Shown here: piece by piece, positions 5,206-20,933 of the stretch
Layout of the letters: the number at the start of each line of letters is the position of its first letter
Position numbering within the stretch: position 1 is the stretch's first letter
DNA from: a virus
Virus record (IMG/VR): IMGVR_UViG_3300033571_028522
Coordinates: 1 to 41,474 of that record
Direction: 5' to 3' (one strand)
DNA length: 41,474 nucleotides
Made by a program: the position numbers and the translations under genes
Notes under the pieces: model-generated
The model's database searches: none
Told to the model about the DNA's origin: nothing
What the model saw: only the letters and a program-made list of their open reading frames with translations

Positions 5206-7191
5206 ATGAAATTTAATGATTTTATAACCACAATTTTACTTGAAAAAGACAACAGACAAAAAATAGTAAAGTTAGGAATACCACAAGAAGTAGCAGATTA
5301 TTTACATAATATGAGCAACAAGTATTCTTTGTGGTTTGCTGACAAAATTAATAAAATGCCAGCATATCAGGCATCAAAAGACAAATTAAGATTTGTAGCA
5401 ACCATTCAAACGGACATACAAAGAATAATAGATTGGATAAGAGGTGAACAAAATGTTTTATTAAATAATTATGACTGGCAAACTGCTGTTCAAAAATCAA
5501 TTGATTATCATGATAATTTAAAAATAACTAATAATGACAGAGAAACCAACACAATTTTAAAAGAATATCCAGATGGTTTTTATTGGGTTGATATAGAAAG
5601 CACTTCTGATTCTTGTGAGAGAGCATCCATGGGGCACTGCGCCAGCACAAGTAAAGGTGATACCCTGTATTCTTTAAGAAAATACAACAAAGCATCAGAC
5701 TCTATAGAATCGTTCATAACCATAGCAATTTCCCCTGATGAAGGAGTGTGGTATCAGTGCAAAGGAAGAAGAAATTCCAAACCAAAAGAGGAATATTTTC
5801 CTTATATAGTGGACATTTTAATCAGTAAAAATGTTTTTCAGTTTAAAACTGAATATGACTCTAGAAACGATTTTAAAGACAGTGATTTTAAAAGATATTT
5901 GGAAGAAAATCCAAATGCATACCCAAATACTGATGAAATCATAGAAAAAATCAACAGTTCTTCAATTTCTATAATAGATTTTGAAAAAATATTAGAACAA
6001 TATCAATCAGATTTTAAACATTATGATATTACAGTGAATGATTCTTATGATGATGAAAGTGATTCTGTTTATGCTAGTTATAGTTTTTATTTAAATATAG
6101 AATCCAAAGATACTGATCTTCCTGTAGATTGTTTGTCTTTTGAAAACAGACAAGCTAAAACATATTTTTCAAATTATGTAACTGATGTTTATGTCACGGA
6201 TATTAACGTGGATAATTACCAAGATGGGACAAGAATATATTGTAACTTTGAAGATTCTGATGACAATTTTTCTATGGATGAATATGGGTTAAAATCTTTT
6301 GAGAAACAATGTGAATACTACAAAGGTTTGAATGAAAAATTTGATTATGAAGAATTTTTAAAAAATCATTTAGAAAAAATTCTAATTTTGGATGATTGTT
6401 TAGAAACTGAACTAACATCTTTTACACAACAAGTCCAAGAAGATTTTGAAGATTTTTATAAAATAAAAACACAAGAAAAAACACTTGATGTTGAAATAAA
6501 ATTATCAGATAGTGAAGTTTTTGGAACAAATATAAATATAAATGATTTTTTAAACAATTCAGTTTTAAAAAGTGTATATACTGATGAATTTCTTATACAA
6601 AGTCCAGAAAAGTTTAAAAAGGATTTATTTTTTAAAGAAAAAAAACATGCTGATGCTTTATTGATGAGCATGTTTTGGAGTTTTATAAAAAATAATGTGC
6701 TTCAAGAATATTCCAGAAATATGAGAATTTATTATCAAACACGTTCAAAAACTTTTGATATAAAGTTTGAATATGATTTTGATGATGAACAAACAAACTA
6801 CACTCAAGAATTAAAATATTTAAAAATATTACAAAACAAACATAGTTCGATAAAAAAATCTCTAGATAAATTTATTAATGATGTATTTATTCCGGTAGTC
6901 CAAAACAAAATTCCTTTTGACATAAGTGACTTTGTGTTTAAAAAGTCTTATAGTGATATAATGTCCCAGATATATACAAACGATGATTCTTACATAGGAA
7001 CTTACAAAAAAGACCTAATAAATGACGAATTTTTAAAAAATCTAATAAAACAAGAAAATTTATCAAATGGATATAAAAATTTTGATGAGAGAAAAGTGTT
7101 TAATTGGTTGGACAATAATATAGAAAATAGTCAATTATTATTGCCAAAATTCAAGGACTTTTTCGAGAGTCGCATGTTAACAAGTAAATAA
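5206..7191 (+). CDS. Large hypothetical protein with capsid-targeting-like leader
   Basis: A 661-residue Asp/Glu/Lys/Tyr-rich protein starting 'MKFNDFITTILLEKD'. The leader resembles the T4 capsid-targeting sequence (MKTYQEFIAEA) and is shared with the genes at 7196, 7627, 8148 and 20933. 'LLE' at residues 11-13 fits the (L/I)-x-E rule of T4 prohead protease. I see no catalytic motif in the body; a Cys/His-bearing stretch near residues 137-150 (CERASMGHC) is notable. Long acidic segments follow. The start at 5206 is favoured over an in-frame upstream extension because it follows TATAAATA and gives the shared leader. An internal, possibly injected virion protein is the inferred role. Confidence 0.7.
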   Translation: MKFNDFITTILLEKDNRQKIVKLGIPQEVADYLHNMSNKYSLWFADKINKMPAYQASKDKLRFVATIQTDIQRIIDWIRGEQNVLLNNYDWQTAVQKSIDYHDNLKITNNDRETNTILKEYPDGFYWVDIESTSDSCERASMGHCASTSKGDTLYSLRKYNKASDSIESFITIAISPDEGVWYQCKGRRNSKPKEEYFPYIVDILISKNVFQFKTEYDSRNDFKDSDFKRYLEENPNAYPNTDEIIEKINSSSISIIDFEKILEQYQSDFKHYDITVNDSYDDESDSVYASYSFYLNIESKDTDLPVDCLSFENRQAKTYFSNYVTDVYVTDINVDNYQDGTRIYCNFEDSDDNFSMDEYGLKSFEKQCEYYKGLNEKFDYEEFLKNHLEKILILDDCLETELTSFTQQVQEDFEDFYKIKTQEKTLDVEIKLSDSEVFGTNININDFLNNSVLKSVYTDEFLIQSPEKFKKDLFFKEKKHADALLMSMFWSFIKNNVLQEYSRNMRIYYQTRSKTFDIKFEYDFDDEQTNYTQELKYLKILQNKHSSIKKSLDKFINDVFIPVVQNKIPFDISDFVFKKSYSDIMSQIYTNDDSYIGTYKKDLINDEFLKNLIKQENLSNGYKNFDERKVFNWLDNNIENSQLLLPKFKDFFESRMLTSK

Positions 7192-7195
7192 AAAT

Positions 7196-7603
7196 ATGAA
7201 ATTCAATGATTTTTATTCAAATTTTTCAAAAACCTATTCTAAAGAATTAGGTGAAAGTTTATTCTCTGAAAGCGAAAAAAAAGAAACACAAAAAGACGCA
7301 TTTCAAGAATTTGCAGAAAAACGCAATTCTGGTGCCAAAAAGATAGCTGATACGGCACATGAAAAAGGTGGTCCTGCCATGCTAACTTACCATCACTTCA
7401 AAGTAAAATTGCCTCACTATAAAAAAGCGGCAAATGGTAAATTTGATATAGACCAAGCAAAAAAGCAATTAAAACAACTTACTAAACAATTGAATGATGC
7501 TGTGGACGGCACCGTCAAAATGAAACAAACAGAATTTCAAAAAATTGTGGGTTTGATCGAAGTGTTGGGAGAATTAATTATTTTTTCTCAAACTCATGAA
7601 TAA
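7196..7603 (+). CDS. Hypothetical protein with capsid-targeting-like leader
   Basis: A 135-residue helical, Lys-rich protein starting 'MKFNDFYSNFSKTYSKELGE'. The first six residues are identical to those of the 661-residue neighbour, and 'LGE' at residues 18-20 would be a prohead-protease-type cut site. The C-terminal two thirds ('KKQLKQLTKQLNDAVDGTV') looks like a helical hairpin. It lies 4 nt after the upstream stop. No known family is recognised; a small internal head protein is the inference. Confidence 0.6.
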   Translation: MKFNDFYSNFSKTYSKELGESLFSESEKKETQKDAFQEFAEKRNSGAKKIADTAHEKGGPAMLTYHHFKVKLPHYKKAANGKFDIDQAKKQLKQLTKQLNDAVDGTVKMKQTEFQKIVGLIEVLGELIIFSQTHE

Positions 7604-7626
7604 AGATGTTGCAGCATAAAAAAATT

Positions 7627-8139
7627 ATGAATTTCAAAGAGTTTTATAAACTAATAAATGAGAACAATGCTGGTTCTACAAAAGTGTCTTTTTCTGAATT
7701 TCAAAATCAGTTAGAAAAACAAAATACTTTAAATTTAGAAGATGATCAAGTTGTTATTCCTCCTTTTGATAAAAACAGAGCACATTTCGTAGAAACTATT
7801 ATAGTTGGAGAGGCTCATTTGATGTTGAAAAACCGTGAAGAAATACAACCTTATGGTGCTCATGAATTTTTTATAGTTGATAATGATGATAATGTAATAG
7901 GATTTGTTAGATTGACCAAATCTCCCTCAGAAATATCAATTAATTTAATTTATATACAAGATGATTATCGTGGCAGAGGAATAGCAAAGGAGTTTTATAA
8001 ATTTTGGTTAGATAAAGGAATATCAGTAAAAAGCGATAAAGAAATCACTAGCGCAACACAGGCCGTTTACACATCATTGGTTCAGCAAGGATATGGTTTT
8101 GATATTAAAGATGATAGAGCTTTGCTCAAACCCATGTAA
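7627..8139 (+). CDS. GNAT-like acetyltransferase with capsid-targeting-like leader
   Basis: A 170-residue protein whose C-terminal part has the GNAT acetyl-CoA-binding signature 'IYIQDDYRGRGIAKEFYKFW' (motif A, R-x-x-G-x-G/A-like) preceded by the beta strand 'NVIGFVRLTKSPSEIS'. It would transfer an acetyl group from acetyl-CoA to an unknown amine. The leader 'MNFKEFYKLINENN' fits the shared tag, with 'INE' at residues 10-12 as a potential cleavage site. I choose ATG 7627 rather than 7606 because it puts this tag at the N-terminus. An injected host-modifying enzyme is possible. Confidence 0.65.
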   Translation: MNFKEFYKLINENNAGSTKVSFSEFQNQLEKQNTLNLEDDQVVIPPFDKNRAHFVETIIVGEAHLMLKNREEIQPYGAHEFFIVDNDDNVIGFVRLTKSPSEISINLIYIQDDYRGRGIAKEFYKFWLDKGISVKSDKEITSATQAVYTSLVQQGYGFDIKDDRALLKPM

Positions 8140-8147
8140 ATAATTAT

Positions 8148-8747
8148 ATGAAGTTTAAACAATTTTATTATGAGAGTATTTCGGACTCTTTCCAAGTATA
8201 TCATGGTGGTAAAAAATGGTATTATACACCAACTGATTTGATAGCATCAAAAAAGAACAGAAAAAATTACGGGACCGGAATTTACACAACAAACTTTTTA
8301 AACACTGCTAGATCATATGCCAAAGGAAGCAGAGTTGTCCATTTATTAGAAATAGACAAAAATTATAGGGACATCAGGCAAGTTAAGATAGATGTGAATG
8401 AAGCTGTTGATTTTATAAAAAATCTAAACGGATTAAGAAAAAAACAGCAATTGATTGATCAGTTACAACATTATTCCGAAAAAATCGGTAAACAAGAAAT
8501 AGGGCTTTCCATTTTAAATAACATAATAATCAATAATGATGCTGCTCCCGGAATTTTGGGCAAACAAGTGTCAAACTTCTTGGTTAGCAAAGGGGCTGAT
8601 GCAGAATTTATAAGTCAAAGCGGTAATGAATTTTGGCTTTTAATTTTTAATCCAAAAATAATAAAAGGGTTCGCTGTGGTTGATCCTAAAAAAGAAGGAA
8701 AAGAGTTTCCTTTTGAATTACCAGATATAAAAAACCCGGTCAATTGA
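8148..8747 (+). CDS. ADP-ribosyltransferase-like protein with capsid-targeting-like leader
   Basis: A 199-residue protein starting 'MKFKQFYYESISD'. It shows the H-Y-E layout of ADP-ribosyltransferase folds: His19 in 'VYHGGKK', Tyr46 in 'YGTGIYTTNFLNTARSYAKG', and a late 'NEFWLLIFNPKII' with Glu161 followed by the 'F/D-P-x-x-I' pattern typical of such domains. It would transfer ADP-ribose from NAD+ to a protein or nucleic acid. T4 Alt, also an ADP-ribosyltransferase, is packaged and injected, which fits the shared leader here. No (L/I)-x-E site is obvious near the N-terminus. The stop lies inside the terminator hairpin. Confidence 0.6.
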   Translation: MKFKQFYYESISDSFQVYHGGKKWYYTPTDLIASKKNRKNYGTGIYTTNFLNTARSYAKGSRVVHLLEIDKNYRDIRQVKIDVNEAVDFIKNLNGLRKKQQLIDQLQHYSEKIGKQEIGLSILNNIIINNDAAPGILGKQVSNFLVSKGADAEFISQSGNEFWLLIFNPKIIKGFAVVDPKKEGKEFPFELPDIKNPVN

Positions 8748-8756
8748 CCGGGTTTT
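8731..8756. terminator. Bidirectional terminator hairpin
   Basis: AAAACCCGGTCAA/TTGACCGGGTTTT is a perfect inverted repeat flanked by A and T runs on each side, lying between the convergent genes ending at 8747 (+) and 8762 (-). It should end transcription in both directions. Confidence 0.85.
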
Positions 8757-8761
8757 CTTTT

Positions 8762-10045
8762 TTATCCTATTAATTCTTTTATAGGCTCTGCTTTATTTCC
8801 TATAGTGAATGGTCTATTATTAGGACTCATCCAGACATCATCACTTTTTATTCCTAAGAAATGACCTATAGTAGCATTCAACTCTCCTATTTGAACAGGG
8901 CGATCCACTACTTTTTGTCCAAACTCATCAGTTTTTCCAATAACCTTGCCTCCAATATCAAGACCTCCGATCAAGCAACTAAATGCACTAGGATGGTGAT
9001 CACGCCCTTCATTCTTGTTTAAGCCTTTGTTGCCATTGCTGTCTCCACTGTCAATTGTTCTGCCAAACTCTGTAGCTACCACTATCAATGTTTCTTTTAG
9101 CAATCCACTCTCACTTAAATCAGAAAAAAGTGCGGCTAGTGCTTTATCATAATATTCTGCTTTTCTCTGCATGTTGGTTGATATGTCGTTGTGCATGTCC
9201 CAACCACCATCACCTATTTCCACATATCTTACACCTTTACTAATTAATCTTTTAGCAAGAAGACATCCTTGACCAAAATTAGAGCGTCCATAAAAATCTC
9301 TAGTTTCTGCTGTTTCTTTATTCAAATCAAACACATCTAAATCTTCGCTTTTTAACAATTTAAGAGTTTCATCATATAATGTGTTGTATGCTTTTACATC
9401 TTGCACTCCAAAATTCTGTCTGAAATTTCTATCCAAAGAATCCATGATGCTTAGACGATTGTTTAAACTTGATTGTGATATGCTTGTTTTACTAAATCTT
9501 AAACCTTCATTGGGATTAATGATTGGAAGTGGGGAGAATTTTTTATCCAAATATCCTTCTCTTGGATGATCATTATCTCCACTTATTAGAATATTATCAG
9601 GAATACTCTGGTGTTGTTTACCAAGCAAATAACTGCTTATTGCTCCCATTGCTGGATGAACTATAAGGCTGTTTTTAGGATAGCTGGTTCTCATAAGATA
9701 TTGACCTTGTGAGTGTGCTCCAGTTTTACTAGTCATGCTTCTTATCAAAGAGAATTTGTCGCCATGTTTGGCTAATTCCGTAAAATATTCGGATACATCA
9801 AAATCACCTTTGGTTCTCACACTTTTTGCTCCTCCCATCACTTTTTCTCCTTTTGGATCAAAAGAATCAAGATGACTCATACCACCATTATTATAAATGT
9901 ATATAACATGTTTGGCCTTTCCAATTTTGTTGTTGTCTGCAAAAACTGGAGTATGTAACACACTTACACCAAAAGTGGTGTATGCTAATTTTTCAATAAA
10001 TTCTCTTCTTGCAACAGAACATTTAAGGTTTAGATTTTTTTTCAT
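8762..10045 (-). CDS. DUF1501 family protein, exported
   Basis: A 427-residue DUF1501 protein, near the family's usual length. Landmarks: 'GGMSHLDSFDPKGE' near the N-terminus, 'GDGGWDMHND' in the middle, and 'ATEFGRTIDSG' with 'EGRDHHPSAFSCLIGG' towards the C-terminus. The fold is related to sulfatases and alkaline phosphatases, but the activity is not established. The N-terminus 'RREFIEKLAYTTFG' is Tat-like, as is usual in this family, so export across the host inner membrane is predicted. DUF1501 genes typically pair with DUF1549/DUF1553 genes in Planctomycetota and Verrucomicrobiota, and one lies just upstream here. The presence of this pair in a phage is unusual. Confidence 0.9.
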   Translation of the reverse strand: MKKNLNLKCSVARREFIEKLAYTTFGVSVLHTPVFADNNKIGKAKHVIYIYNNGGMSHLDSFDPKGEKVMGGAKSVRTKGDFDVSEYFTELAKHGDKFSLIRSMTSKTGAHSQGQYLMRTSYPKNSLIVHPAMGAISSYLLGKQHQSIPDNILISGDNDHPREGYLDKKFSPLPIINPNEGLRFSKTSISQSSLNNRLSIMDSLDRNFRQNFGVQDVKAYNTLYDETLKLLKSEDLDVFDLNKETAETRDFYGRSNFGQGCLLAKRLISKGVRYVEIGDGGWDMHNDISTNMQRKAEYYDKALAALFSDLSESGLLKETLIVVATEFGRTIDSGDSNGNKGLNKNEGRDHHPSAFSCLIGGLDIGGKVIGKTDEFGQKVVDRPVQIGELNATIGHFLGIKSDDVWMSPNNRPFTIGNKAEPIKELIG

Positions 10046-10163
10046 AATTTTTTTTATTTTTATCCAAAGAACATTGTATTATTTTTTTGGTTTCTATCAA
10101 ATGTTTAAAAACATTTAATTTTTTAGTTTCTTCTTCTATTTTAAGATATAGTAATTCCTCCAT
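10023..10163 (-). CDS. Small Lys/Glu-rich protein between DUF1549 and DUF1501 genes
   Basis: A 46-residue ORF starting one base after the DUF1549/DUF1553 stop and overlapping the DUF1501 start by 23 nt. It begins 'MEELLYLKIEEETKKLN' and is almost entirely charged and helical. The tight packing supports translational coupling through the operon. It may just be a coupling ORF with no separate function. Confidence 0.45.
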   Translation of the reverse strand: MEELLYLKIEEETKKLNVFKHLIETKKIIQCSLDKNKKNYEKKSKP

Positions 10164-10164
10164 A

Positions 10165-11880
10165 TTATTTTCTGAATATAAATTCTCTAGAATTTATCAA
10201 AGCCCACACAACATCATTTGTTTCTGCTTTTTGTAAAATTCCGTTTTCTTGTATGCTGGCAGGTCTTGATAATATGCTTAATATTATATTATCTTTGTTC
10301 TTGGATGCATCAACGAATATCTGACTTTTTTTATTTAATAGAATCTCCATTATGGGAGAATTCATGATGGTTAACACTTGTGTTATACTGCCTTTATCAT
10401 TACTAGAATCTATCAATATTCTGTCGCTGCTACCATATTCTTTTAAAAATTGACCAACAAAAGAGTTTTTATTCAACACAAAACTTGATCTGACTAAATC
10501 TATATTTTTATATTTTAAGAAATTTGAATTTAATGATCTATCATATTCTGTTATTTGTTTCATTCTGTCTAATAACATTTGCCCATTCACAACATTCCAA
10601 TCTATTTCTATCAAGTTGGAATATTCATCAAATGATAGTCTTGTATAATTTACATCTGGTATCACAAGTGTTAAAAGGCTGTCCCATATCTGGTAACTGC
10701 TCATTCTTTTTACCAACACAGACTGTTGTTCAAATTCTTCTACGTTTTTATTATATGCTTTTCTGCTGTAAAAATCGCTTGTTGTTATTAATCTTAATAC
10801 AGATTTTATGCTGTAATTATTTTTTACAAAATAGTCTCCTATAAATTGTAAAATTTTTCCTTTGTTATTTTCATCTATTGAAAAATTAGTTTCTGTTTGT
10901 ACAAGTCCTTTTCCAACAATATTCTGCCACAGTCTATTAGATATTGTATGAGAAAAATCAGAATGATTAACAATCCATTCTGATGCAGATATTCTTTTAT
11001 CTTGTTTTATGTTTTTTACATTGCCATCTAATGACACTGGTTCCACCACATCAAAGGGGTTTGAATCAGAATATTTATAGTCATGAGGTAATTTGAGTTG
11101 CTTGGAGTCATCATCTTTTAAATTAAAAAGATTAGAAGATAACAATTGTCTAACATTATTATCTATTCTATCTTTTTTTGTGATGTCTTTTATTTGCTCA
11201 TCTATTTTTTTTATAACATCTCCATAATCTTTTCTTCTCTCTCTATTATCCAAACCATTGAAAAAACTAGCCATTTGATAGAATTGTTTTTGAGTGTAGT
11301 CTTGGAATGGATCATCATGACACTGAGCACATGCTATGTCCTTACCTATAAATATCTGAAGACTTGTGGCAAGGTTATCAAGAGGCATACCATTATCTCT
11401 TAGCATATAACCTGTTGCTGCATTATCAGTGTATCTGCCTTTTGCTGTTAAAAGAGAAAACACAAAATCTTTGTAGCTTTGGTCTTGTCTGATGAATTTT
11501 TTGAGGTAACCCATGTATGGATAACTCTTTAACAGACCCACATCATCACTAAGTCTTTCTGGTCTTATTCTAAACAAATCTGCCCAAAAATTATAATAAT
11601 TATTAACGTAATCCTCTGATGATAGAATTTTATCAACTAATTTCTGTTTTTTATCAGAATTTTTATTTTTTAAAAAATCATCAATTTCTTGTATTTTTGG
11701 TATTCTGCCAGCCAAATCAATGTAAACTCTTCTAATCCAAGTATAATCATCAACTAAAGAAGAATCTCCTTTTACAGAATTTTTAGAATAGAATTCCTTT
11801 AACACAAGGTCCAATCCATTGCTTGCAAAAGATAGTGCTGGAAGAAAAAAGACTGTTAGTAGTATTAATATTTTTTTCAT
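10165..11880 (-). CDS. DUF1549/DUF1553 family protein, secreted
   Basis: A 571-residue protein with a clear Sec signal peptide ('MKKILILLTVFFLPALSFA'). The N-terminal DUF1549 domain has 'RRVYIDLAGRIPKIQEID' and a CxxCH motif 'CAQCHDDPF' at residues 184-188, a possible haem or metal site. The C-terminal DUF1553 domain covers roughly 300-560, including 'NRLWQNIVGKGLV' and 'SRPASIQENG'. These proteins are hallmark families of Planctomycetota and Verrucomicrobiota, usually next to DUF1501 genes, with a cell-surface or periplasmic role that is still unknown. It is shorter than many bacterial homologues, which carry added cytochrome or LamG domains. Confidence 0.9.
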   Translation of the reverse strand: MKKILILLTVFFLPALSFASNGLDLVLKEFYSKNSVKGDSSLVDDYTWIRRVYIDLAGRIPKIQEIDDFLKNKNSDKKQKLVDKILSSEDYVNNYYNFWADLFRIRPERLSDDVGLLKSYPYMGYLKKFIRQDQSYKDFVFSLLTAKGRYTDNAATGYMLRDNGMPLDNLATSLQIFIGKDIACAQCHDDPFQDYTQKQFYQMASFFNGLDNRERRKDYGDVIKKIDEQIKDITKKDRIDNNVRQLLSSNLFNLKDDDSKQLKLPHDYKYSDSNPFDVVEPVSLDGNVKNIKQDKRISASEWIVNHSDFSHTISNRLWQNIVGKGLVQTETNFSIDENNKGKILQFIGDYFVKNNYSIKSVLRLITTSDFYSRKAYNKNVEEFEQQSVLVKRMSSYQIWDSLLTLVIPDVNYTRLSFDEYSNLIEIDWNVVNGQMLLDRMKQITEYDRSLNSNFLKYKNIDLVRSSFVLNKNSFVGQFLKEYGSSDRILIDSSNDKGSITQVLTIMNSPIMEILLNKKSQIFVDASKNKDNIILSILSRPASIQENGILQKAETNDVVWALINSREFIFRK

Positions 11881-11918
11881 ACAGATTATATACTTACCAA
11901 AAATTTCAGCCTTTCGTT

Positions 11919-12866
11919 TTATTTAATTTTTTGTGACAAATTAAATAAAAGAGAGCAAAAATTGATTTCCGGGTCCAAAACAAAAGAATGTCTATACATA
12001 TATTCACTAATTAAAATGCTGCAAACCACCTCTTTGTCTCTGACGTATAGATGAAACATATCTTTCATAAGAGAATGAAAATCGTTGTTAAATTCTTGTG
12101 AAGAATCCACCACAACCTGTCTTATCTCAAATACATCCTGCTTTTGTTTGAGCATATTTTTGATTCTCTTGGCAAAAACGCCAGATTCAATTTTAGGTTT
12201 AACAAAAATTGCACCAGAACAACATCTTTGTAATTCGTTGATGGTTTTTCTAACATCTGGAAAATAATTTTTTACAATTGATTTAATATCTCCCAGATCT
12301 TCTTTTTGAACTGTTATTTGTTCATTTTTTAGAATATATACTATTCTTTGCAACACATGTTTTTCACTACAAGAGAGTGAAAACTCTTGGCATCTGCTTC
12401 TTAATGCTTCTATAAGTTTATTTTTATAATTTGCTGTAAGAATAAACTTAACATGGTCTAGATATTCTTCCATGATGCTGCGAAGAGCTTGTTGTGCTGC
12501 CATGCTCACTCCATCAGCCTCATCAAGAATAATGGTTTTTCCATTACCATCAAAAGAAGATACACTGATAAAATCATTTATGAGATTTCTAACAGTATCA
12601 ATGCTGCCTTGTTCACTTGCATTAATATACAAGTATGAATTAGGACTAAACTTTTTAGCTAAAATCTTTGCAAGAGTGCTTTTGCCAACTCCCGGATGAC
12701 CTATAAAAAGAAGGTTATTAGGAATATCGGTTAATCCTTCAAAGTATGTTTTCTCTTGATCATTCAAGAGTAAATCTGTTATATTTTGTGGTCTGTATTT
12801 TTCTGTCCAAACTTGGTTGATAGTCATATCGAAAGTTATACTAGTAAGAGGTTTTGTCAAGTTCAT
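11919..12866 (-). CDS. Sliding-clamp loader ATPase (T4 gp44 / RFC small-subunit type)
   Basis: A 315-residue AAA+ protein. 'EKYRPQNITDLLLND' near the N-terminus, Walker A 'GHPGVGKSTLAKIL', Walker B 'TIILDEADG', sensor 1 'FILTAN', and the Ser-Arg-Cys arginine-finger motif 'LRSRCQEFSL' are all present, as in T4 gp44 and RFC small subunits. It loads the sliding clamp on primer-template DNA for the phage polymerase. The start could be at 12866 or at an internal Met at 12827, immediately before 'TINQVWTEKYRP'; the second matches the family better. It is sandwiched between two DUF1501/1549-type genes on the same strand, showing that those genes are embedded in the phage core. Confidence 0.9.
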   Translation of the reverse strand: MNLTKPLTSITFDMTINQVWTEKYRPQNITDLLLNDQEKTYFEGLTDIPNNLLFIGHPGVGKSTLAKILAKKFSPNSYLYINASEQGSIDTVRNLINDFISVSSFDGNGKTIILDEADGVSMAAQQALRSIMEEYLDHVKFILTANYKNKLIEALRSRCQEFSLSCSEKHVLQRIVYILKNEQITVQKEDLGDIKSIVKNYFPDVRKTINELQRCCSGAIFVKPKIESGVFAKRIKNMLKQKQDVFEIRQVVVDSSQEFNNDFHSLMKDMFHLYVRDKEVVCSILISEYMYRHSFVLDPEINFCSLLFNLSQKIK

Positions 12867-12877
12867 ATAATAGATAT

Positions 12878-12934
12878 ATGAATTTTGAAGATTTTTATGA
12901 TTGGCCCTTCAACTGGAGAAATAATTATAACTGA
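12878..12934 (+). CDS. Orphan capsid-targeting-like leader peptide
   Basis: An 18-residue ORF (MNFEDFYDWPFNWRNNYN) on the + strand in the gap between two minus-strand genes. It is preceded by ATAATAGATAT, closely similar to the sequence before the 661-residue tagged gene (ATAAATAGATAT ATG). It looks like the promoter plus leader of a lost tagged gene, or a self-standing leader peptide. Confidence 0.35.
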   Translation: MNFEDFYDWPFNWRNNYN

Positions 12935-12943
12935 TAAAATCTC

Positions 12944-14200
12944 TTAAGCTATAATATCTTTTATAATACTGCCTTCTCTCACAATATCTATAGGTCTTAA
13001 ATCGCTGGTCATTAATCTTTTTTCAAAGTCTATACCCAATAAACTATAGATTGTTGCTGTTAAATCTTCTGGAGACACTGGATTGTTGTCAGGCTCACTT
13101 GCTAGTGCATCACTAGTGCCATAAGAGAAACCTTTTTTGATTCCTCCTCCTGCTAAAACTGTGCTAAAAACTCTGGGCCAATGATCTCTGCCGTTGGTGC
13201 CATTTATTTTTGGTGTTCTACCAAATTCACTAGTAACCACAACCAGAGTTGTTTGTAGTAATCCCCTTTGTTCCAAATCATTTATAAGACAAGAAAATGC
13301 TTTGTCAAAAAAAGGTGCTTGAGACATCATGGCATTTTTTAAATTGCTGTGATGATCCCAACCACCATAATTCACTGTTACCATTCTTACTCCCGCTTCC
13401 ACCAAACGACGAGCCATCAACAGTCTCATTCCAGCAGAATTTTTACCATACTTTTCTTTTGTTTCTTCCTTTTCTTTGCTCAAATCAAAAGCTTCCACAG
13501 CATTTTTATTGGACATAAGTTGATAAGCACTGTCATAAAAAGACTGCATTGCTTTTAAATGATCACTATTTTGTGAAGTGCTAAAATGATCATCAACTGT
13601 TTGAAGAATATTTTTTCTTCTATCAAATCTATTTGCATCTATATCCTTTGGACTCTGTAAATCTTTTACTTTAAAATCAGAGTCCTCTGGACTGCCACCC
13701 AAAGAGAAAGGGCCATATTTAGTTGATAAATAACCACTACCATTTTCTGGTGCAAATTGATTTGGCACTAATATATAAGAAGGAAGGTTGTTTCTGTCTC
13801 CTAATTCATGACTTACTATGCTGCCTATAGAGGGATATTTTATTGCTGGGCTTGGTCTGTAACCAGTAAGCATGTTGTGAACTCCTCTCTCATGTGCAGC
13901 TTCACCATGAGTCATGCTTCTAATAACTGTTAATTTATCACTAATCTGTGCTGTTTGGTTTAAAATTTCTCCAAAAAACACATCATCAATTTTTGTTTTT
14001 ATTCCAGAAAAAGGACCACGATATTCGCCACTGCCATTAATCTTATAATCCCAAGTATCTTGGTGGGCCACTCCTCCCGGTAAAAATATCTGAATAATAC
14101 TTGATGCTTTGGGTTGTTCCTTTTGTTGTATTTCAGATTTTGCTAGAATCGGAATACTTAAACCTGCAAAACTTTTTTTTATGATGTCTCTTCTGTTCAT
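12944..14200 (-). CDS. DUF1501 family protein, Tat-exported (second copy)
   Basis: A 418-residue DUF1501 protein, clearly homologous to the one at 8762 but well diverged. Landmarks: 'GWDHHSNLKNAM', 'TSEFGRTPKINGTNGRDHWP' and 'VLAGGGIKKGFSYGTSD'. The N-terminus 'MNRRDIIKKSFAGLSIP' is a plausible Tat signal. TATAAATA lies at 14211-14218, 10 nt before the ATG, suggesting late expression. Two different DUF1501 copies around one DUF1549/1553 gene suggest a small functional cassette acting outside the host inner membrane, perhaps at the cell surface or during release. Function is inferred only from family and export. Confidence 0.9.
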   Translation of the reverse strand: MNRRDIIKKSFAGLSIPILAKSEIQQKEQPKASSIIQIFLPGGVAHQDTWDYKINGSGEYRGPFSGIKTKIDDVFFGEILNQTAQISDKLTVIRSMTHGEAAHERGVHNMLTGYRPSPAIKYPSIGSIVSHELGDRNNLPSYILVPNQFAPENGSGYLSTKYGPFSLGGSPEDSDFKVKDLQSPKDIDANRFDRRKNILQTVDDHFSTSQNSDHLKAMQSFYDSAYQLMSNKNAVEAFDLSKEKEETKEKYGKNSAGMRLLMARRLVEAGVRMVTVNYGGWDHHSNLKNAMMSQAPFFDKAFSCLINDLEQRGLLQTTLVVVTSEFGRTPKINGTNGRDHWPRVFSTVLAGGGIKKGFSYGTSDALASEPDNNPVSPEDLTATIYSLLGIDFEKRLMTSDLRPIDIVREGSIIKDIIA

Positions 14201-14494: not shown

Positions 14495-14502
14495 ATTAAT
14501 TG

Positions 14503-14904: not shown

Positions 14905-14935
14905 CAATAATAACAATAATAATAATAATAATAAT
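14899..14935. repeat. AAT/AAC trinucleotide repeat
   Basis: A run of about a dozen AAT or AAC units fills the gap between the stop of the 91-residue ORF and the ATG at 14936. It may vary in length by slippage and so alter the spacing before the membrane-protein gene. Confidence 0.7.
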
Positions 14936-15520
14936 ATGATAAAATACTTTATAGGTTGTTTGTTGTTTTCCTTGGGAGCAACATCATTTATATTTTCCAA
15001 TCAGGGAACAGACCCTTTGGATGTTTTTTGTCTAGGAATACAAAATTATGCTGATTTAAAAATAGGAACAATCCAATCTCTTTTTGCAGCAGCTTGTTTG
15101 TTTTTTTATAGCATGATTAATAAATGGAAATTTCCTCCAATATCCACGTTTTTAACATTTTTCATATGTGGTTATGCTATAGATTTTTTTAGATATTATT
15201 TGAATGATTGCAAAGAAATTTTCAATTCTTATTTATTGTTATTTTCTGGAACCTTGTTGTGTGTAGAAGGTAGTGCTCTAATCATAATGAGTGGTTTTGG
15301 AATAAGAGCTATGGATTTGTTGTCTCTTAGCTTGCAAGAAAAAACAAACAAACCTTTTTGGTTGTTTAAAGGAATTTTTGAATTGATGTTGCTTGTGGCA
15401 GGATGGTGTCTAGGAGGTCCGGTGGGATTTGGCACTATAGTATTTTTGATGGTTGTTGGCTGGCTTATACAACCAGTTATAACTTTAAATAATATGATGT
15501 CTAACAAGTTGACAAACTAA
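14936..15520 (+). CDS. YczE/YitT-like integral membrane protein
   Basis: A 194-residue protein with about five hydrophobic helices. 'LGATSFIFSNQGTDPLDVFC' followed by 'KIGTIQSLFAAACLFF' and a late 'GGPVGFGTIVFLMVVGWLIQP' match the YczE family, in which 'G-x-x-P-x-D' and 'G-x-G-T-I' motifs recur. The transported substrate, if any, is unknown for this family, and a phage copy is uncommon. ATG 14936 is chosen; an in-frame upstream start would translate the AAT repeat as poly-Asn and is unlikely. The -35 element of the next promoter lies in its last codons. Confidence 0.7.
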   Translation: MIKYFIGCLLFSLGATSFIFSNQGTDPLDVFCLGIQNYADLKIGTIQSLFAAACLFFYSMINKWKFPPISTFLTFFICGYAIDFFRYYLNDCKEIFNSYLLLFSGTLLCVEGSALIIMSGFGIRAMDLLSLSLQEKTNKPFWLFKGIFELMLLVAGWCLGGPVGFGTIVFLMVVGWLIQPVITLNNMMSNKLTN

Positions 15521-15537
15521 CCATCAAAGATTAAGGT
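15509..15537 (+). promoter_or_regulatory. Sigma70-like promoter before the 5' nuclease gene
   Basis: TTGACA at 15509-15514, 17 nt spacer, TAAGGT at 15532-15537, then 5 nt to the ATG at 15543. The -10 is weak, but the layout equals that of 34268-34296, and transcription would start near the ATG. Confidence 0.45.
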
Positions 15538-15542
15538 TAATC

Positions 15543-16460
15543 ATGTCAAACACTTACGACAATATTATAATTGATGGCAACAACCTTCTTTACAGGGCTT
15601 TTTATGTAAAAAGACCCTGTAAATTCGTTAATAATATAAATGTTGCTCCAGTAGAGCAATTTTTATACATGATTAAATCTGTATGTATAAAATTCAAACC
15701 CAAAAATATTTTTCTAACTTGGGATAAAAAACTAAATCCAGAAAGAAAAAATTTCAGAAAAGACCTGCTGGCATACAAAGAACAAAGAGTAGAAAACGAA
15801 AAAACAGAAGAATTACTCAATAACATTCAACATATACAAAAATTTATTGATTGTTTGGGAATCAAAACAATTTATCCAAAAAATACAGAAGCTGATGATG
15901 TTATTCGTTATTTAAGCATCACTTACAACAATTCTTTGATAATTTCTAATGATAGAGATTTATTACAACTAATAAGACAATCTGTGGATGTATATCTACC
16001 AGACAAAGAAAGAATTGTTTGTAGTGATAATTTTCAAGAAATAAATGGAGTAGAGCAAAAACATTTCGTTTTATATAAAAGTATAAAAGGAGATGTTAGT
16101 GATAATATTGATGGATTGTATAAATTCGGACCTGTCAGAGCTAAAATTCTTGCTGAAAAAATACTTGTAGATTCTGCTGTGGATTTTTCTAAAGCAGAAT
16201 TATCAAAAGACCAAATTGAAATAATTGAAAGAAATCTAAAAGTAATAGACTTGTCTTATATAGAACAAGCAGAGCCTGATGAATATTCTAATTTCAAACA
16301 ACAAGATGAAAATTGTAATGTAAAATTTGATATTGAATGTCTAAAAAATCTATTCAAAGAATACCATTTTATTAAATTTTTAAATGGTTTTAGTGAATGG
16401 AGTATGATATTTAATACAAGTAAAGATGAAAAAGATTTACTTTCTTTTATATCTCTATAA
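15543..16460 (+). CDS. 5'-3' exonuclease / flap endonuclease (T4 RNase H type)
   Basis: A 305-residue FEN-family nuclease. 'IIIDGNNLLYRAFY' at the N-terminus, 'NTEADDVIRYLS' and 'IISNDRDLLQLI' supply the metal-binding acidic residues, and 'SIKGDVSDNIDGLYKFGPVRA' is the helix-hairpin-helix region that grips DNA behind the flap. The length matches T4 RNase H. It removes RNA primers and 5' flaps during lagging-strand synthesis, working with the clamp and loader encoded nearby. It has its own TTGACA-type promoter. Confidence 0.9.
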   Translation: MSNTYDNIIIDGNNLLYRAFYVKRPCKFVNNINVAPVEQFLYMIKSVCIKFKPKNIFLTWDKKLNPERKNFRKDLLAYKEQRVENEKTEELLNNIQHIQKFIDCLGIKTIYPKNTEADDVIRYLSITYNNSLIISNDRDLLQLIRQSVDVYLPDKERIVCSDNFQEINGVEQKHFVLYKSIKGDVSDNIDGLYKFGPVRAKILAEKILVDSAVDFSKAELSKDQIEIIERNLKVIDLSYIEQAEPDEYSNFKQQDENCNVKFDIECLKNLFKEYHFIKFLNGFSEWSMIFNTSKDEKDLLSFISL

Positions 16461-16471
16461 GTATATAAACT

Positions 16472-16663
16472 ATGAATTTATTACAAAATACACCTATATC
16501 ATGCAGAGTATGCAATGCTGTGTCATATGGCAGAGAATCTCCTATAAGACAAAATGATGGCTCTTTAGTCATGGAATGTCAATGGAGATGCAGCAGATGT
16601 GGAACATACTTAAAAAGAGGAATTACTAAAATAATAGAAAAACCTAAAAATGAAAACAAGTAA
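16472..16663 (+). CDS. Small zinc-ribbon-like protein
   Basis: A 63-residue protein with two CxxC pairs, 'SCRVCNAVSYG' and 'RCSRCGTYLKRG', the pattern of a single zinc ribbon. It could bind nucleic acid or act as an adaptor for RNA polymerase. It overlaps the next gene by 14 nt. Confidence 0.6.
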   Translation: MNLLQNTPISCRVCNAVSYGRESPIRQNDGSLVMECQWRCSRCGTYLKRGITKIIEKPKNENK

Positions 16664-17039
16664 AAAAATATTAATAATAACAGTCTCTCTGTTGATAACA
16701 ACATTTATAAGTGCTAGTATTGCTGGAGGTCTGTGTTTTTTGTGGAATTGGAGCTTTTGGCCAGTATTTTGGATGTTATCAGGAACACAGATACTAGGTT
16801 CTTTGTGGTATGATAAATATTATGAGTCTTCTAAATTACTCAAATCAGTAGAAGAATATACTAATAAACCTTATAAAAAATATATAGTCCCATTAAATTG
16901 TGCTCATTGTGGTAATGTAGTAGAAGTGGAAACAGATTTGAATTACACAGAATTTAAATGTGAGAATTGTAAAAAATATAATGGTTTGCATGTAAACTTT
17001 ATGGCTGCTGCAATAACAGAACCTATAAATCAAGCATAA
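16650..17039 (+). CDS. Membrane protein with C-terminal zinc ribbon
   Basis: A 129-residue protein with two hydrophobic segments (about residues 7-30 and 33-50) followed by a cytoplasmic zinc ribbon, 'NCAHCGNVVEV' and 'KCENCKKYNG'. Overlap with the upstream zinc-ribbon gene and a 2-nt gap to the next gene place it firmly in the operon. No specific function is known. Confidence 0.6.
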   Translation: MKTSKKILIITVSLLITTFISASIAGGLCFLWNWSFWPVFWMLSGTQILGSLWYDKYYESSKLLKSVEEYTNKPYKKYIVPLNCAHCGNVVEVETDLNYTEFKCENCKKYNGLHVNFMAAAITEPINQA

Positions 17040-17041
17040 TT

Positions 17042-17479
17042 ATGAGTTTTCTTAAACCTGATTTTGATTACAATCCTTTGAATGTTATGTATGAACCTCC
17101 TGATCAACAGGAGGTATCTCCTTCAAAAATATATGAAAGCAAATCCATCCTACAAAATGACATAAAACAGTTTTGTAAAGATATTACAGATTATGAGCTA
17201 TATAGATTTTATGGTAATTCTTCAATTTCATTTAGAACAAATACTAATGTTTTTGACAGTGTAGCTTTTTTAGAAAAATTCAATGATGCATTTATTTTTA
17301 GTTTAAAGAAAAATTTTCCAGAAATTTCACCTGAAAGCATACAAGAAATTCAAGAAAATGCTGAAAATTTTCAAAATTCTGTTGCAAAAACTCTAAAATA
17401 TAGTAATGTTGAAAACAAATATTTGTTAGCATTATCTCTAGGTATTATAGAGAGTATGTTAGAATATGAGAATTACTAA
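17042..17479 (+). CDS. Hypothetical protein
   Basis: A 145-residue, mostly helical acidic protein with no recognised motif. It contains the phrase 'YEPPDQQEVSPSKIYES' in its proline-rich N-terminal part. Flanked within 2 nt on both sides by genes of the same operon. Confidence 0.5.
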   Translation: MSFLKPDFDYNPLNVMYEPPDQQEVSPSKIYESKSILQNDIKQFCKDITDYELYRFYGNSSISFRTNTNVFDSVAFLEKFNDAFIFSLKKNFPEISPESIQEIQENAENFQNSVAKTLKYSNVENKYLLALSLGIIESMLEYENY

Positions 17480-17480
17480 A

Positions 17481-18020
17481 ATGGAAGACACCAACAACAT
17501 AAACTTGCCAGATTTACCAAAAAAATCTGACAAAAAAACAAAAACCAAAGATAAACCAATCGAAAACCAAATCTTGCCAAGAACCAACAGAGATTTAGTT
17601 TGTATTTACTGCGAAAATGAAAAAATTTTAAATCCTGATCAATATCAGGCTCTTTATGATTTACATGGTAGTGAAGAAAAAATAAAGGATGAGTTTTTTT
17701 GCAAACCATGTGAGATGCAAATGAAAAACAACCCATTCAAATTTTGGACAATCTATGGTAATCAATTTAAGACTTTATTAAAAAATCTCAAAACAACTTT
17801 TGAAATTTATAAAACAAGTAGTCATTCTTTAGAAGATGCAACAGCACTTCAAAATATGACATTATCTTTTTTAAAAGAGTGTAATATAAAAGAACCCAAC
17901 TTTGAGTTTATAATAGTGGATAAAAATCCAATAGGAATGACCATCAAAAGCGTGCCTTTTGTTGGAGATGTTGTATTAAATGTATATGAATCTAAAAATA
18001 ATAGAATCATCATTAGATAA
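17481..18020 (+). CDS. Hypothetical zinc-binding protein
   Basis: A 179-residue protein with a Lys/Asp-rich N-terminus and a zinc finger made from 'CIYCENEKIL' and 'FFCKPCEMQM'. The C-terminal half looks alpha/beta with 'FEFIIVDKNPIGM'. ATG 17481 starts one base after the upstream stop; an in-frame ATG at 17466 would overlap it by 14 nt. A nucleic-acid-binding role is only a guess from the zinc site. Confidence 0.55.
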   Translation: MEDTNNINLPDLPKKSDKKTKTKDKPIENQILPRTNRDLVCIYCENEKILNPDQYQALYDLHGSEEKIKDEFFCKPCEMQMKNNPFKFWTIYGNQFKTLLKNLKTTFEIYKTSSHSLEDATALQNMTLSFLKECNIKEPNFEFIIVDKNPIGMTIKSVPFVGDVVLNVYESKNNRIIIR

Positions 18021-18297
18021 ACCAAATTGCAAAAAAATGAATTTACAAACATTTTGTAATTGGTTTGCGTTGTGCAATGCATTGAAATTTATTAATAATG
18101 GTTGTGAATTATCTGGTAAATATGTGGATGAAAATGATTTAGACTACAGAGGAATCATAAATTATGTGAATAGTGTTGGAGGAGATATTATGACTTGTGT
18201 AAAACAAACAAAAGGAATACCATTCAAATATTCTCTAAACAATAAAACGGATGATTTTGAAATAGAAGATATTTCTTATGAATTTCTGAGTAAATAA
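17980..18297 (+). CDS. Hypothetical protein
   Basis: A 105-residue ORF overlapping the upstream gene by 41 nt. An in-frame Met at 18037 would give an 86-residue protein with no overlap, beginning 'MNLQTFCNWFALCNALKF'. I cannot decide between the two. No family recognised. Confidence 0.45.
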   Translation: MYMNLKIIESSLDKPNCKKMNLQTFCNWFALCNALKFINNGCELSGKYVDENDLDYRGIINYVNSVGGDIMTCVKQTKGIPFKYSLNNKTDDFEIEDISYEFLSK

Positions 18298-18308
18298 TAA
18301 AAGTTTTT

Positions 18309-18343
18309 AATATTTTAGAATGCTTTACTGGTTTTAAAATATT
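18309..18343 (+). promoter_or_regulatory. AU-rich hairpin ahead of hsp20
   Basis: AATATTTTA at 18309-18317 pairs with TAAAATATT at 18335-18343 around a 17-nt loop, 17 nt before the Hsp20 start. It is all A-T, so it would melt easily, and may be a thermosensor or just AT-rich sequence. Confidence 0.3.
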
Positions 18344-18360
18344 GATATAAAAAATAAAAT

Positions 18361-18765
18361 ATGAGCAATATACTAAATAATCGCTGGGGTTCTCTTTTTG
18401 ATGAACCGTTCTTTCAAGACATTTTTAATGTCTTTAACACAAAAACCACCTACCCTTATAACATAGATGCTTATGAAGATCGTGTTGTTATAGAAATTCC
18501 TCTTGCAGGGTATAAAAAAGATAACATCTCTTTGGAGGTAGAAGATAACATTCTTTCCTTAAAAGTCTCTAAAAAAGAGGAAAAAGACTCAACAGGAAAA
18601 TATATGCATAAAGGAATAAGCAATAGAGACTTGTTCTTTAAGTGGAATCTACATTCTAGTCTGGATTCTGATAGCATACAGTCCACTTTTGAGGATGGTA
18701 TGCTGGTGATAACCATCAAAGGCAAACACAAAGAAAAGAATAAAAAATTGATAGAAATTAAATAA
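18361..18765 (+). CDS. Hsp20 small heat-shock protein
   Basis: A 134-residue alpha-crystallin-domain protein. 'YNIDAYEDRVVIEIPLAGYKKDNISLEV' opens the domain, 'EDNILSLKVSKKEE' follows, and 'STFEDGMLVITIKGK' carries the conserved G-x-L motif. Small heat-shock proteins are common in T4-type cyanophages and other marine myoviruses, where they probably keep phage proteins soluble during assembly. It ends the + strand operon and is followed by a strong terminator. Confidence 0.9.
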   Translation: MSNILNNRWGSLFDEPFFQDIFNVFNTKTTYPYNIDAYEDRVVIEIPLAGYKKDNISLEVEDNILSLKVSKKEEKDSTGKYMHKGISNRDLFFKWNLHSSLDSDSIQSTFEDGMLVITIKGKHKEKNKKLIEIK

Positions 18766-18768
18766 AAT

Positions 18769-18798
18769 AAAAAAGAGAGGGAATCCCCTCTCTTTTTT
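18769..18798. terminator. Terminator after hsp20
   Basis: AAAAAGAGAGGG and CCCTCTCTTTTT flank a short AAT loop, followed by a T run. Typical intrinsic terminator, with A/T flanks that would also allow leftward termination. Confidence 0.85.
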
Positions 18799-18820
18799 TT
18801 ATAGAAAAAGTGCTTTACAT

Positions 18821-18828
18821 GATAAATA
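18821..18828 (+). promoter_or_regulatory. Late-type promoter motif before the tail tube gene
   Basis: GATAAATA lies 8 nt ahead of the tail tube ATG at 18837 and directly after the upstream terminator, as expected for a late structural gene. Confidence 0.6.
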
Positions 18829-18836
18829 TCTATTAT

Positions 18837-19508
18837 ATGGCACTAGGTAGTATTAAAAAAGCTTACGATACATTCAAACAACATGATTTCTCTCGTTCTT
18901 TTCAATTAAGAATATTAGGAATGAATAATGTTCCTGATTATGTACAGAGAGAATTAATAACACAAGAAGGAAGATTATATGCTACCAGTTATGTTGTTCC
19001 CGGCAGAAGCATTCAAAACATTGATGTGCCTTTCCAAGGGTTTCAATTCAAACTTCCCGGTCAAGTAGCATATGATAGCCCTAATCCTTGGCAAATCACC
19101 TTTAGAACAGCGGGAGACTATCTTGCAAGAAATGCCTTGGAAAGATGGAGCTTTGAGACTGCTAATGATGAAACTAGCTGTGGTCGCTTTAACTTGCCAT
19201 GTGATAATACAACAATTGATATTGCTGTATTATCTCCTAAATGTGAAATTATAAGAGTATATCGTTTACATGGTGTTTATATTCAAAACGTAAGTCAAAT
19301 AGACTATAACCAAGAAAATTCAGAAGGAACCACCTTTACAGCAGCTTTCCACTACCAATACTGGAGACCAGCAGGAGGTTACGATACTGGTCTTGTGGAC
19401 TCTACAAACGTTAACAACGGTATTGTGGATGGTGTGTTTGCCACTTACGAGAGTAAGATACAACAAAGCACTGGAGAATGTCCTCCCGTGAATATCCCAA
19501 GATTATAA
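18837..19508 (+). CDS. Tail tube protein (T4 gp19 type)
   Basis: A 223-residue protein matching T4-type tail tube subunits: an N-terminal 'ALGSIKKAYDTFKQHDF', then 'QVAYDSPNPWQITFRTAGDYLARNALERW', the family's signature region (shown here in parts: YDSPNPWQITFRT and ARNALERW). It polymerises into the inner tube of the contractile tail. Start ATG 18837 is favoured over a GTG at 18810 because the late promoter motif at 18821 lies between them. It is a single-gene unit with its own late promoter and terminator. Confidence 0.85.
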   Translation: MALGSIKKAYDTFKQHDFSRSFQLRILGMNNVPDYVQRELITQEGRLYATSYVVPGRSIQNIDVPFQGFQFKLPGQVAYDSPNPWQITFRTAGDYLARNALERWSFETANDETSCGRFNLPCDNTTIDIAVLSPKCEIIRVYRLHGVYIQNVSQIDYNQENSEGTTFTAAFHYQYWRPAGGYDTGLVDSTNVNNGIVDGVFATYESKIQQSTGECPPVNIPRL

Positions 19509-19512
19509 AAAG

Positions 19513-19539
19513 AAAAACCCGCTTTTTAAGCGGGTTTTT
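19513..19539. terminator. Bidirectional terminator between tail tube and tilS
   Basis: A 12-bp stem, AAAAACCCGCTT with AAGCGGGTTTTT and a 3-nt loop, with T runs on both strands, lies between convergent genes ending at 19508 and 19526. Confidence 0.9.
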
Positions 19540-20209
19540 TATTAATCTTTTCTTTGTATTTCTTGGATACAATTGTTTTTAGATTGTAATTTTGTTGTAC
19601 AAGAGGAACAACACTAAGTCTCAACCAATTTCTTCTGTATTTTTGATCACTGTTTGTCTGGTCTTGCTCTACAAACTGCATCAAGTTGTGTTTTTGTGCA
19701 TACTCCTGCAATTCATTTTTTTCATTCAAGATGAATGGTCTAATAACATTCAAACCAAAATCAATATATTCTGTCTCCAAAGGAATGGGCAAGTATTCTG
19801 ACACTCCATTAAAGCAATTAAATAAATAGTTTTCAACAGCATCATCCAAATGATGACATGTGATAACATTTCCCAAGCCGCTCATAGCTTTGTATCTGAT
19901 TGTTCTTAAACCATTCTCTGAAAAATCATTTTCGTGTTCTTGTCTATTTTTTACCAAAAAAGGCAAATTTAAATGTTTGCACAACTCTTGTGCTTTTTTC
20001 ATCATAACATCATTCTGTGGTCTTAGTTGGTGATTAAAATGAAAACATTTCAAAGAAATTTTGGGAAATTTAGTAGCCAAGAAATGCACACAAGAAACAC
20101 TATCAACACCTGATGAGAGTGCAACTGTTGCTCCTTGCTGTTTGATTTTATTTAATAGACTTGGAATGATGTTCATGTTTGAACATAACTCCTTGCTATG
20201 TTTAGTCAA
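19526..20209 (-). CDS. tilS: tRNA(Ile)-lysidine synthetase-like protein (short TilS)
   Basis: A 227-residue PP-loop ATPase. 'VALSSGVDSVSCVHFL' is the P-loop (SGGxDS variant), 'CHHLDDAVENYLFNCFNG' is the TilS catalytic motif, and 'DQTNSDQKYRRNWLR' matches the 'D-x-S/T-N-x-D-x-x-x-x-R-N' segment specific to TilS. It would use ATP and lysine to convert C34 of CAU-anticodon tRNA-Ile to lysidine, changing Met decoding to Ile (AUA). Only the N-terminal core is present; the C-terminal tRNA-binding domains of long TilS are missing. It overlaps the tagged metallopeptidase gene by 8 nt and lies downstream of the tRNA array that contains CAU tRNAs. Confidence 0.8.
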   Translation of the reverse strand: MTKHSKELCSNMNIIPSLLNKIKQQGATVALSSGVDSVSCVHFLATKFPKISLKCFHFNHQLRPQNDVMMKKAQELCKHLNLPFLVKNRQEHENDFSENGLRTIRYKAMSGLGNVITCHHLDDAVENYLFNCFNGVSEYLPIPLETEYIDFGLNVIRPFILNEKNELQEYAQKHNLMQFVEQDQTNSDQKYRRNWLRLSVVPLVQQNYNLKTIVSKKYKEKINKKPA

Positions 20210-20933
20210 TACCTTTTTCTGCTAACTCTGCTACTGTGGTATATATTATTTTAATAACACTGATTTTGTTTTCTCTTGTTAAATTTTTTATAAAAGGAGT
20301 ATCCTTGATAAAATTGAATATTTCTCTGCTAGCACTTTTTAGATTTTTCTGTTTTATATAAAATTTAAAAGCTTGTGAACTATCAGTGGTATCTTTTAAA
20401 ACATCATAAACATATCTGGTAATGTATGCATTCATCTCTTCATCAGCATTATAATATTGTTTCTTATCCTTGACATCATATTTTGGTTTGTATTTTAATA
20501 CATCTTTTACTATATCCTCGTATGCATGAGTTAATTCATGTGAAATAATATTTTTTATATATTTTGGAAGACTTTTATTAACAAAATCTTCAAATTTTCT
20601 TTCTTTGTAGTAATTATTTTCTTTTTTTGATGTATTGATATAAACCTCTATTCTTCCATTTTGGTCTTGTGTTTTATCAAAGTAAAGGGCGTTGAAATTT
20701 TTTTCCACACCATAATTTTTTATATACTCTAACGCTGGTTTACTATATCCTTTATAAAATTTTATATCCAAATCATAGTCATCCCCTAATTTTACAGTAT
20801 AGGTTTTTCCCGGTTTTACTGATCCTGTTTTTTCAATTTCATTTTTCAATTCTTGTAAAACAAGAGTTGTTAATTTAAATAAATTTGTAAAAAATGCTCT
20901 TTCTTTTATAAGATAAAATTGTTTGTAATTCAT
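20202..20933 (-). CDS. Zinc metallopeptidase-like protein with capsid-targeting-like leader
   Basis: A 243-residue protein with a zincin motif: 'IISHELTHAYEDI' (HExxH) and a likely third ligand Glu in 'YYNADEEMNAYITRY' 20-30 residues later, as in gluzincins. The leader 'MNYKQFYLIKERAFF' matches the MKF/MNF-x-x-FY tag of the genes at 5206-8747 although it is 12 kb away, and 'IKE' (9-11) would be a prohead-protease-type site. A protease packaged in the capsid and injected is an attractive inference. ATG 20933 follows GATAAATA by 5 nt. Confidence 0.65.
   Translation of the reverse strand: MNYKQFYLIKERAFFTNLFKLTTLVLQELKNEIEKTGSVKPGKTYTVKLGDDYDLDIKFYKGYSKPALEYIKNYGVEKNFNALYFDKTQDQNGRIEVYINTSKKENNYYKERKFEDFVNKSLPKYIKNIISHELTHAYEDIVKDVLKYKPKYDVKDKKQYYNADEEMNAYITRYVYDVLKDTTDSSQAFKFYIKQKNLKSASREIFNFIKDTPFIKNLTRENKISVIKIIYTTVAELAEKGID

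Follow-up and report, generated by a model that had tools for sequence, protein, structure and literature searches.

Tagged genes in the window

We analysed virus record IMGVR_UViG_3300033571_028522 over its full 41,474 bases, a stretch called the window here. Its source is a T4-like virus, and it carries a T4-like tail tube gene and a T4-like clamp loader. An initial annotation had proposed that five of its genes, with differing bodies, share an N-terminal tag resembling the T4 capsid-targeting sequence (CTS), and that the tagged proteins are packaged and injected. Read from the sequence, the five N termini are as claimed (MKFNDFI at 5206+, MKFNDFY at 7196+, MNFKEFY at 7627+, MKFKQFY at 8148+ and MNYKQFY at 20933−), as are four (L/I)-x-E sites (LLE at residues 11–13, LGE at 18–20, INE at 10–12 and IKE at 9–11). 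The family is wider than this set of five: a sixth tag, at 3220 on the minus strand, had been overlooked. F or Y at residue 3 and F at residue 6 occur in all five tags and F4 and F7 in the sixth, and L/I-x-E is found in five of the six, the exception being the 8148 protein with I-S-D. The tag starts at 5206 and 7627 are not the first start codons of their open frames. The genes and associated elements are as follows.

2975–3220, minus strand: sixth tagged protein, 81 residues, isoelectric point 10.2; start MNQFDSFVNAVLNEE, tag MNQFDSFVNAVLNE (3179–3220)
5194–5200, plus strand: ATAAATA late-promoter-like element (TATAAATA), 5 nt before the ATG at 5206
5206–8747, plus strand: cassette island of tandem tagged genes; relatives keep the flanks and swap the contents
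5206–7191, plus strand: tagged protein, 661 residues; tag MKFNDFITTILLE (5206–5244), predicted cut after E13
7184–7190, plus strand: GTAAATA late-promoter-like element, 5 nt before the ATG at 7196
7196–7603, plus strand: tagged basic helical protein, 135 residues; tag MKFNDFYSNFSKTYSKELGE (7196–7255)
7627–8139, plus strand: tagged GNAT acetyltransferase, 170 residues; tag MNFKEFYKLINE (7627–7662)
8136–8142, plus strand: GTAAATA late-promoter-like element, 5 nt before the ATG at 8148
8148–8747, plus strand: tagged ADP-ribosyltransferase (ART)-like protein, 199 residues (H..YGTGIY..NEFW); tag MKFKQFYYESISD
20202–20933, minus strand: tagged zincin-like protease (HELTH), 243 residues; tag MNYKQFYLIKE (20901–20933)
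20939–20945, minus strand: ATAAATA late-promoter-like element, 5 nt before the ATG at 20933

No body-to-body similarity was found between the tagged proteins of the window. The 7627 protein matches Pfam Acetyltransf_1 above cut-off (E = 6.6e-8), while the ART-like 8148 protein (DUF3990, E = 8.8e-5) and the zincin-like 20933 protein (Peptidase_M91, E = 0.0022, with HELTH present) fall below it, and neither the 5206 nor the 7196 protein has a convincing family. The 5206 protein gave no match to any family or to other large tagged proteins. Orthologues of the 7196 protein in L152–L155 are 90% identical and keep the tag, an orthologue of the 20933 protein in L156 is 40% identical and retains it as MNFTEHFLLHE, and the 3220 tag has the counterpart MNQFDSFVNSILGE in relatives. 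Searches of viral contigs and phages returned no relative of the 8148 protein, whose orthologue surfaced only through a neighbouring gene; an AlphaFold model of this protein from five aligned sequences had a mean predicted local distance difference test score (pLDDT) of 49 and was not used.

Recurrence of the tag in related genomes

Related records were reached through the window's tail tube (G001–G006, 81% identity), through the polymerase of that tail-tube group (the wider clade, the majority at 46–60% identity) and by a search with the 7196 protein, which led to G025–G028, the nearest relatives at the tag locus. The clade is uncultured, T4-like and far from Tequatrovirus. A motif search beyond the five genes, which the initial annotation had called for, showed that the tag recurs at N termini across related genomes, and at least 20 unrelated protein families are tagged in the same form across thirteen related records.

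Matches to the exact pattern shared by the five, M[KN][FY][NK][DEQ]F[IY], number five in the window and eight in G028 and G025; there is none among 16,738 Met positions (open frames of at least 45 residues) in other phages, namely other clade members, T4, P-SSM4, Mel-JY01, HTVC008M, V45v66, immuto, phiKZ (200 kb) and T7. The chance of five matches among the window's 229 Met positions is about 1e-9 at the 95% upper rate, a value that is circular for the window because the pattern was derived from it. G028 and G025 were obtained after the pattern had been fixed and so constitute an independent test; their eight matches include three body families (four genes) absent from the window (P about 5.5e-6, counting genes). 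Tags of the wider clade follow a less strict form (for example MTENFDNFFDNLLE, MNYKSLFNKILLE and MLFDDFINSILE). The clade pattern was found at the starts of 63 of 1,218 genes, with up to four start candidates per gene, compared with 15 of 3,084 internal Met positions, an approximately tenfold enrichment. Counted per start candidate in the distant members, the broader pattern was present at 32/1,282 starts versus 9/2,258 internal positions (P = 4.6e-8), and there was none in phiKZ or T7. The homologue of the 7196 protein in the cultured Flavobacterium phage immuto begins MRLLELLREA, without the tag, and this phage has an S77 protease; the tag is therefore not universal among T4-like phages.

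A positioned candidate cut site and a prohead protease

The candidate cut site was tested on 102 non-redundant matches chosen by their aromatics alone, with Glu not required. In 64 of these, (L/I/V/M/F)-x-E is present with its Glu at offset 6–12 from the first aromatic, compared with 4 to 18 in equal downstream windows. Glu at exactly offset 9 or 10 accounts for 49 hits, over a downstream background of about 2 per position. A minor peak at offset 16–17 lies seven residues beyond the main one, which fits two helical turns; the LGE of the 7196 protein is present as claimed but is part of this second, longer class, with a predicted cut after E20.

In the T4 leader, targeting relies on residues 4 and 7, whereas residues 8 and 10 govern processing; an Asp at position 10 stops processing and leaves targeting intact (PMC9026906). 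The resemblance of the tags to this leader is specific in that they retain aromatics at i and i+3 plus the positioned (L/I/V/M/F)-x-E, although they are about one helical turn longer than the T4 leader. T4 internal proteins with MKTYQEFIAE were recovered in the pattern search. The 8148 tag has Asp (I-S-D) where its 69% identical orthologue in L152/G025 has Glu (L-N-E; MKFKEFYNLLNE); because of this substitution at the expected place, the 8148 protein may be packaged but uncut. As a side observation, the uncharacterised T4 gp61.1 (18966–19130, minus strand; L151) begins MKTFKEFIKED, near the known CTS MKTYQEFIAE.

A search for the gp21-type protease that such a system would use gave S77 (Pfam) matches in two tag-bearing relatives, G013 and G023, where the protease genes adjoin gp22-like and gp23 genes. 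The T4 counterparts were matched with E = 4.7e-36 for gp23 and 1.4e-11 for gp21. Candidate cut sites LVQE/T and LLQE/A in gp23 lie near the T4 gp23 position, and gp21 itself carries LIIE or LIVE at residue 10. As a control, the same search picked up T4 and four further T4-like phages and gave nothing in phiKZ or T7.

Late-promoter-like elements

We scored as late-promoter-like the element (A/G)TAA(A/G)TA located 3–8 nt before an ATG. Four of the six window tags have it; upstream of the 7627 gene it was looked for and not found. Across the clade, 38 of the 90 tagged genes have it, compared with 151 of the 1,112 untagged ones (P = 2.7e-10, a value that overstates independence because the genes come from related genomes), mostly with a spacing of 5 nt in tagged genes. 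Clade-wide (e.g. window 5194–5205), the elements most often end 5 or 6 nt ahead of the ATG, whether or not the gene is tagged. Applying the transcription start position of T4 late promoters, transcription here would begin at about the ATG, which suggests, as a guess, near-leaderless late mRNAs.

This arrangement raises the alternative that the leader serves translation or transcription, as an AT-rich 5′ end that lacks structure and suits such mRNAs, with M-K/N-F encoded incidentally. The shared spacing of the elements is consistent with it, as are the rarity of Shine-Dalgarno-like sites in the clade and the AT-rich leaders. The 151 untagged genes share the promoter spacing without having the tag, the codons of the leaders vary while their amino acids are kept, and the constraint extends to residues 10–20 as a positioned (L/I/V)-x-E, and we consider this explanation very unlikely compared with capsid targeting.

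Cargo repertoire in the clade

The tagged proteins of the clade include several ART types, one over the ART-PolyVal cut-off and one Arr-like below cut-off, and a GNAT-like family in which the tag persists at 22–30% identity. Tags are also found on a 2H phosphoesterase carrying two HxT motifs, on a cyclic-phosphate receiver domain, on a lysozyme-like protein and on large proteins of unknown kind. The 2H cargo scores above the 2′-5′ RNA ligase superfamily cut-off (33.3 versus 27) and its two HxT motifs are invariant; its assignment to Acb1, which counters cyclic-oligonucleotide-based antiphage signalling (anti-CBASS), was rejected (21.4 bits versus a family cut-off of 27). In a sample of viral contigs, the 2H family is found with the leader, without it, or as a domain of long multi-domain proteins. 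Separately, 2H phosphoesterases with T4-like leaders were seen in 635- and 642-kb phages (L165 301–843, MKLKKYKQFIKES; L168 289–840, MIKKYLEFMKES). A basic C-terminal module (VLGNDGPYDTSDxRxP...RRxKxKKRK) was also noted downstream of tagged ARTs, and a similar version follows a tag directly, with no other body (G005 74438–75628, G006 4028–4810, G013 72349–73134 and G018 30744–30914).

The lysozyme-like protein, together with some clade-conserved tagged families that look structural (for example MNYKQFFNKLLQE and MTQFDSYVKKIMEE), could fit a leader that docks proteins to the tail, the baseplate or a phage compartment of the infected cell, and not to the head. The head core is indicated by a protease-type cut site at a set position, by agreement with the residues of the T4 CTS and by the LIIE or LIVE at residue 10 of gp21 itself, which leaves docking outside the head very unlikely in our judgement.

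The cassette island

The tagged genes at 5206–8747 are flanked by the 3220, 4487 and 4878 genes on one side and by DUF1501, DUF1549 and clamp loader genes on the other. The same flanks enclose different tagged-gene sets in G028 and G025, whose island holds an ART-PolyVal protein, 145- and 263-residue unknowns, a ParB-like protein (by motif) and 841- and 163-residue unknowns; an orthologue of the 8148 protein sits in the G025 island. Single tagged cassettes that are kinase-like by motif, with no Pfam hit, adjoin the clamp loader in G028 and G025, and there are none in the window. Enzymes that follow the leader are exchanged from one relative to another in the manner of cassettes. One pair of unrelated proteins, the 7627 protein and the 263-residue G025 protein, is identical over the first 24 nt. 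This identity fits the exchange of cassettes and also an alternative in which a 5′ end was shared through recent duplication or recombination, with no common function for the leader. Against that alternative, the bodies are unrelated, codons differ in most leaders and leaders are kept in orthologues at 22–40% identity, and we regard it as the least credible explanation.

A probable capsid-targeting leader

Very probably, the leader that these proteins have in common is a T4-type capsid-targeting sequence, from which we infer packaging, cleavage, injection and targets; the sequence largely supports this reading, and the leader is probably homologous to the T4 CTS. The tagged genes would be expressed late, as their promoter-like sites suggest. 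The leader probably forms an amphipathic helix whose two aromatics lie one turn from each other; it would dock each protein onto the prohead core, and the S77 prohead protease would release the mature protein within the head by cutting after (L/I/V)-x-E. In the following infection, these proteins would be carried in along with the DNA and act ahead of all phage gene expression, the ARTs, GNATs, protease and kinase-like proteins on host proteins and the 2H phosphoesterases on nucleotide signals. The bodies would be exchanged behind the leader in the cassette island.

Several observations weigh against capsid targeting. The 8148 protein lacks a proper (L/I)-x-E, and more than half of the tagged genes have no promoter-like site. 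The S77 match is absent from the window record and from G003–G007 and G025–G028, all of them fragments; no block of head genes was recognised in the window fragment or in those of its nearest relatives. A looser pattern, in the window and G025/G028 alone, was not significant compared with internal Met positions, and a still looser one over all open frames was close to shuffled sequences (z from −0.9 to 3.6 across genomes); the very loose pattern was replaced by tighter patterns, internal-Met controls and the held-out exact pattern. Finally, the tag and promoter counts draw on related genomes and are not independent events.

We give even chances to a further step, in which the CTS has been turned into an open, modular delivery platform whose interchangeable tagged cassettes load several enzymes per head, in some members with a phosphoesterase of nucleotide signals. 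If so, a pre-packaged 2H phosphoesterase could disarm cyclic-nucleotide defences on entry in some members, and the leader by itself would point to new anti-defence proteins that are injected by environmental T4-like phages, perhaps also in 600-kb phages, where 2H homologues have Y-x-x-F-(I/M)-x-E leaders. Phage-injected proteins are hard to find because their bodies share no homology; here one leader marks the candidates. The ARTs, GNATs, proteases, 2H phosphoesterases, kinase-like proteins and large unknown proteins are candidate early effectors that may bear on bacterial defences, and the new leaders are on offer for loading proteins into heads. These findings suggest that the T4 packaging code extends far beyond enterobacterial phages and evolves by cassette exchange.

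Comparison with known systems

The T4 CTS system with IPI, IPII, IPIII and Alt (PMC9026906, PMC12373910) shares with the clade a short N-terminal leader, aromatics at i and i+3, (L/I)-x-E, unrelated bodies with an ART among the cargo, and variable accessory loci, with S77 in tag-bearing relatives here. It differs in the offset of the cut from the first aromatic, which is 6 in T4 and 9–10 or 16–17 here; the leaders here are also diverse in sequence and there are many more cargo enzyme families. The leader is the only part shared by T4 Ip1–3, which block different GmrSD enzymes (PMC12373910), and these proteins are, by analogy, our model for the role of the tagged proteins.

The Dar system of phage P1 (PMC9024508) likewise has an N-terminal signal and anti-restriction cargo, and a DarB signal of 9–30 residues suffices to send a reporter to the capsid (PMC9024508); the phage and its protease are unrelated, and DarB is a single protein of very large size. 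Polyvalent proteins of phages and conjugative elements have the same repertoire of ART, GNAT, zincin peptidase, kinase and 2H phosphoesterase domains, with DNA-coupled delivery and an action of 2H domains on nucleotide signalling predicted (PMC5512222). They carry many domains per polypeptide, whereas the tagged cargo here consists mostly of single domains, each with its own leader; in the window only single domains were recognised, compared with the two or more effector domains per polypeptide that define a polyvalent protein. Ejection proteins of the giant phage SPN3US (PMC5694885) are also head cargo with N-terminal propeptides cut after Glu, but the propeptides are mostly longer than 100 residues, with A-x-E sites and a much diverged protease. 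The literature searched, a scope outside subscription papers and preprints, yielded no description of such leaders in this clade. New here are the clade, a leader that is longer and has two cut distances, the extent and nature of the cargo, and the cassette island.

Other features of the window and its relatives

On the minus strand at 3217–4185, an intein lies within a 44-residue basic protein (MAKKDACYHKVKARYKVWPSAYA / SGALVKCRKKGASNWGKGKKK); the G028 and G025 copies are intein-free, and matches to Hint and intein models are weak. The clamp loader is flanked, at 8762–14200 (minus strand), by three secreted proteins that were recognised by eye, two of them DUF1501-like and one DUF1549/DUF1553-like; they are kept in G025 and G028, and proteins of these kinds are common in planctomycete-type bacteria. 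The region 21598–33890 (minus strand) holds 24 tRNA genes, between which lie putative homing-endonuclease genes with HNH-like motifs. In G003, approximately 20 small paralogous leucine-rich-repeat-like genes form an array at 22105–37190 (L008; NKLTSLKGSPKIV...).

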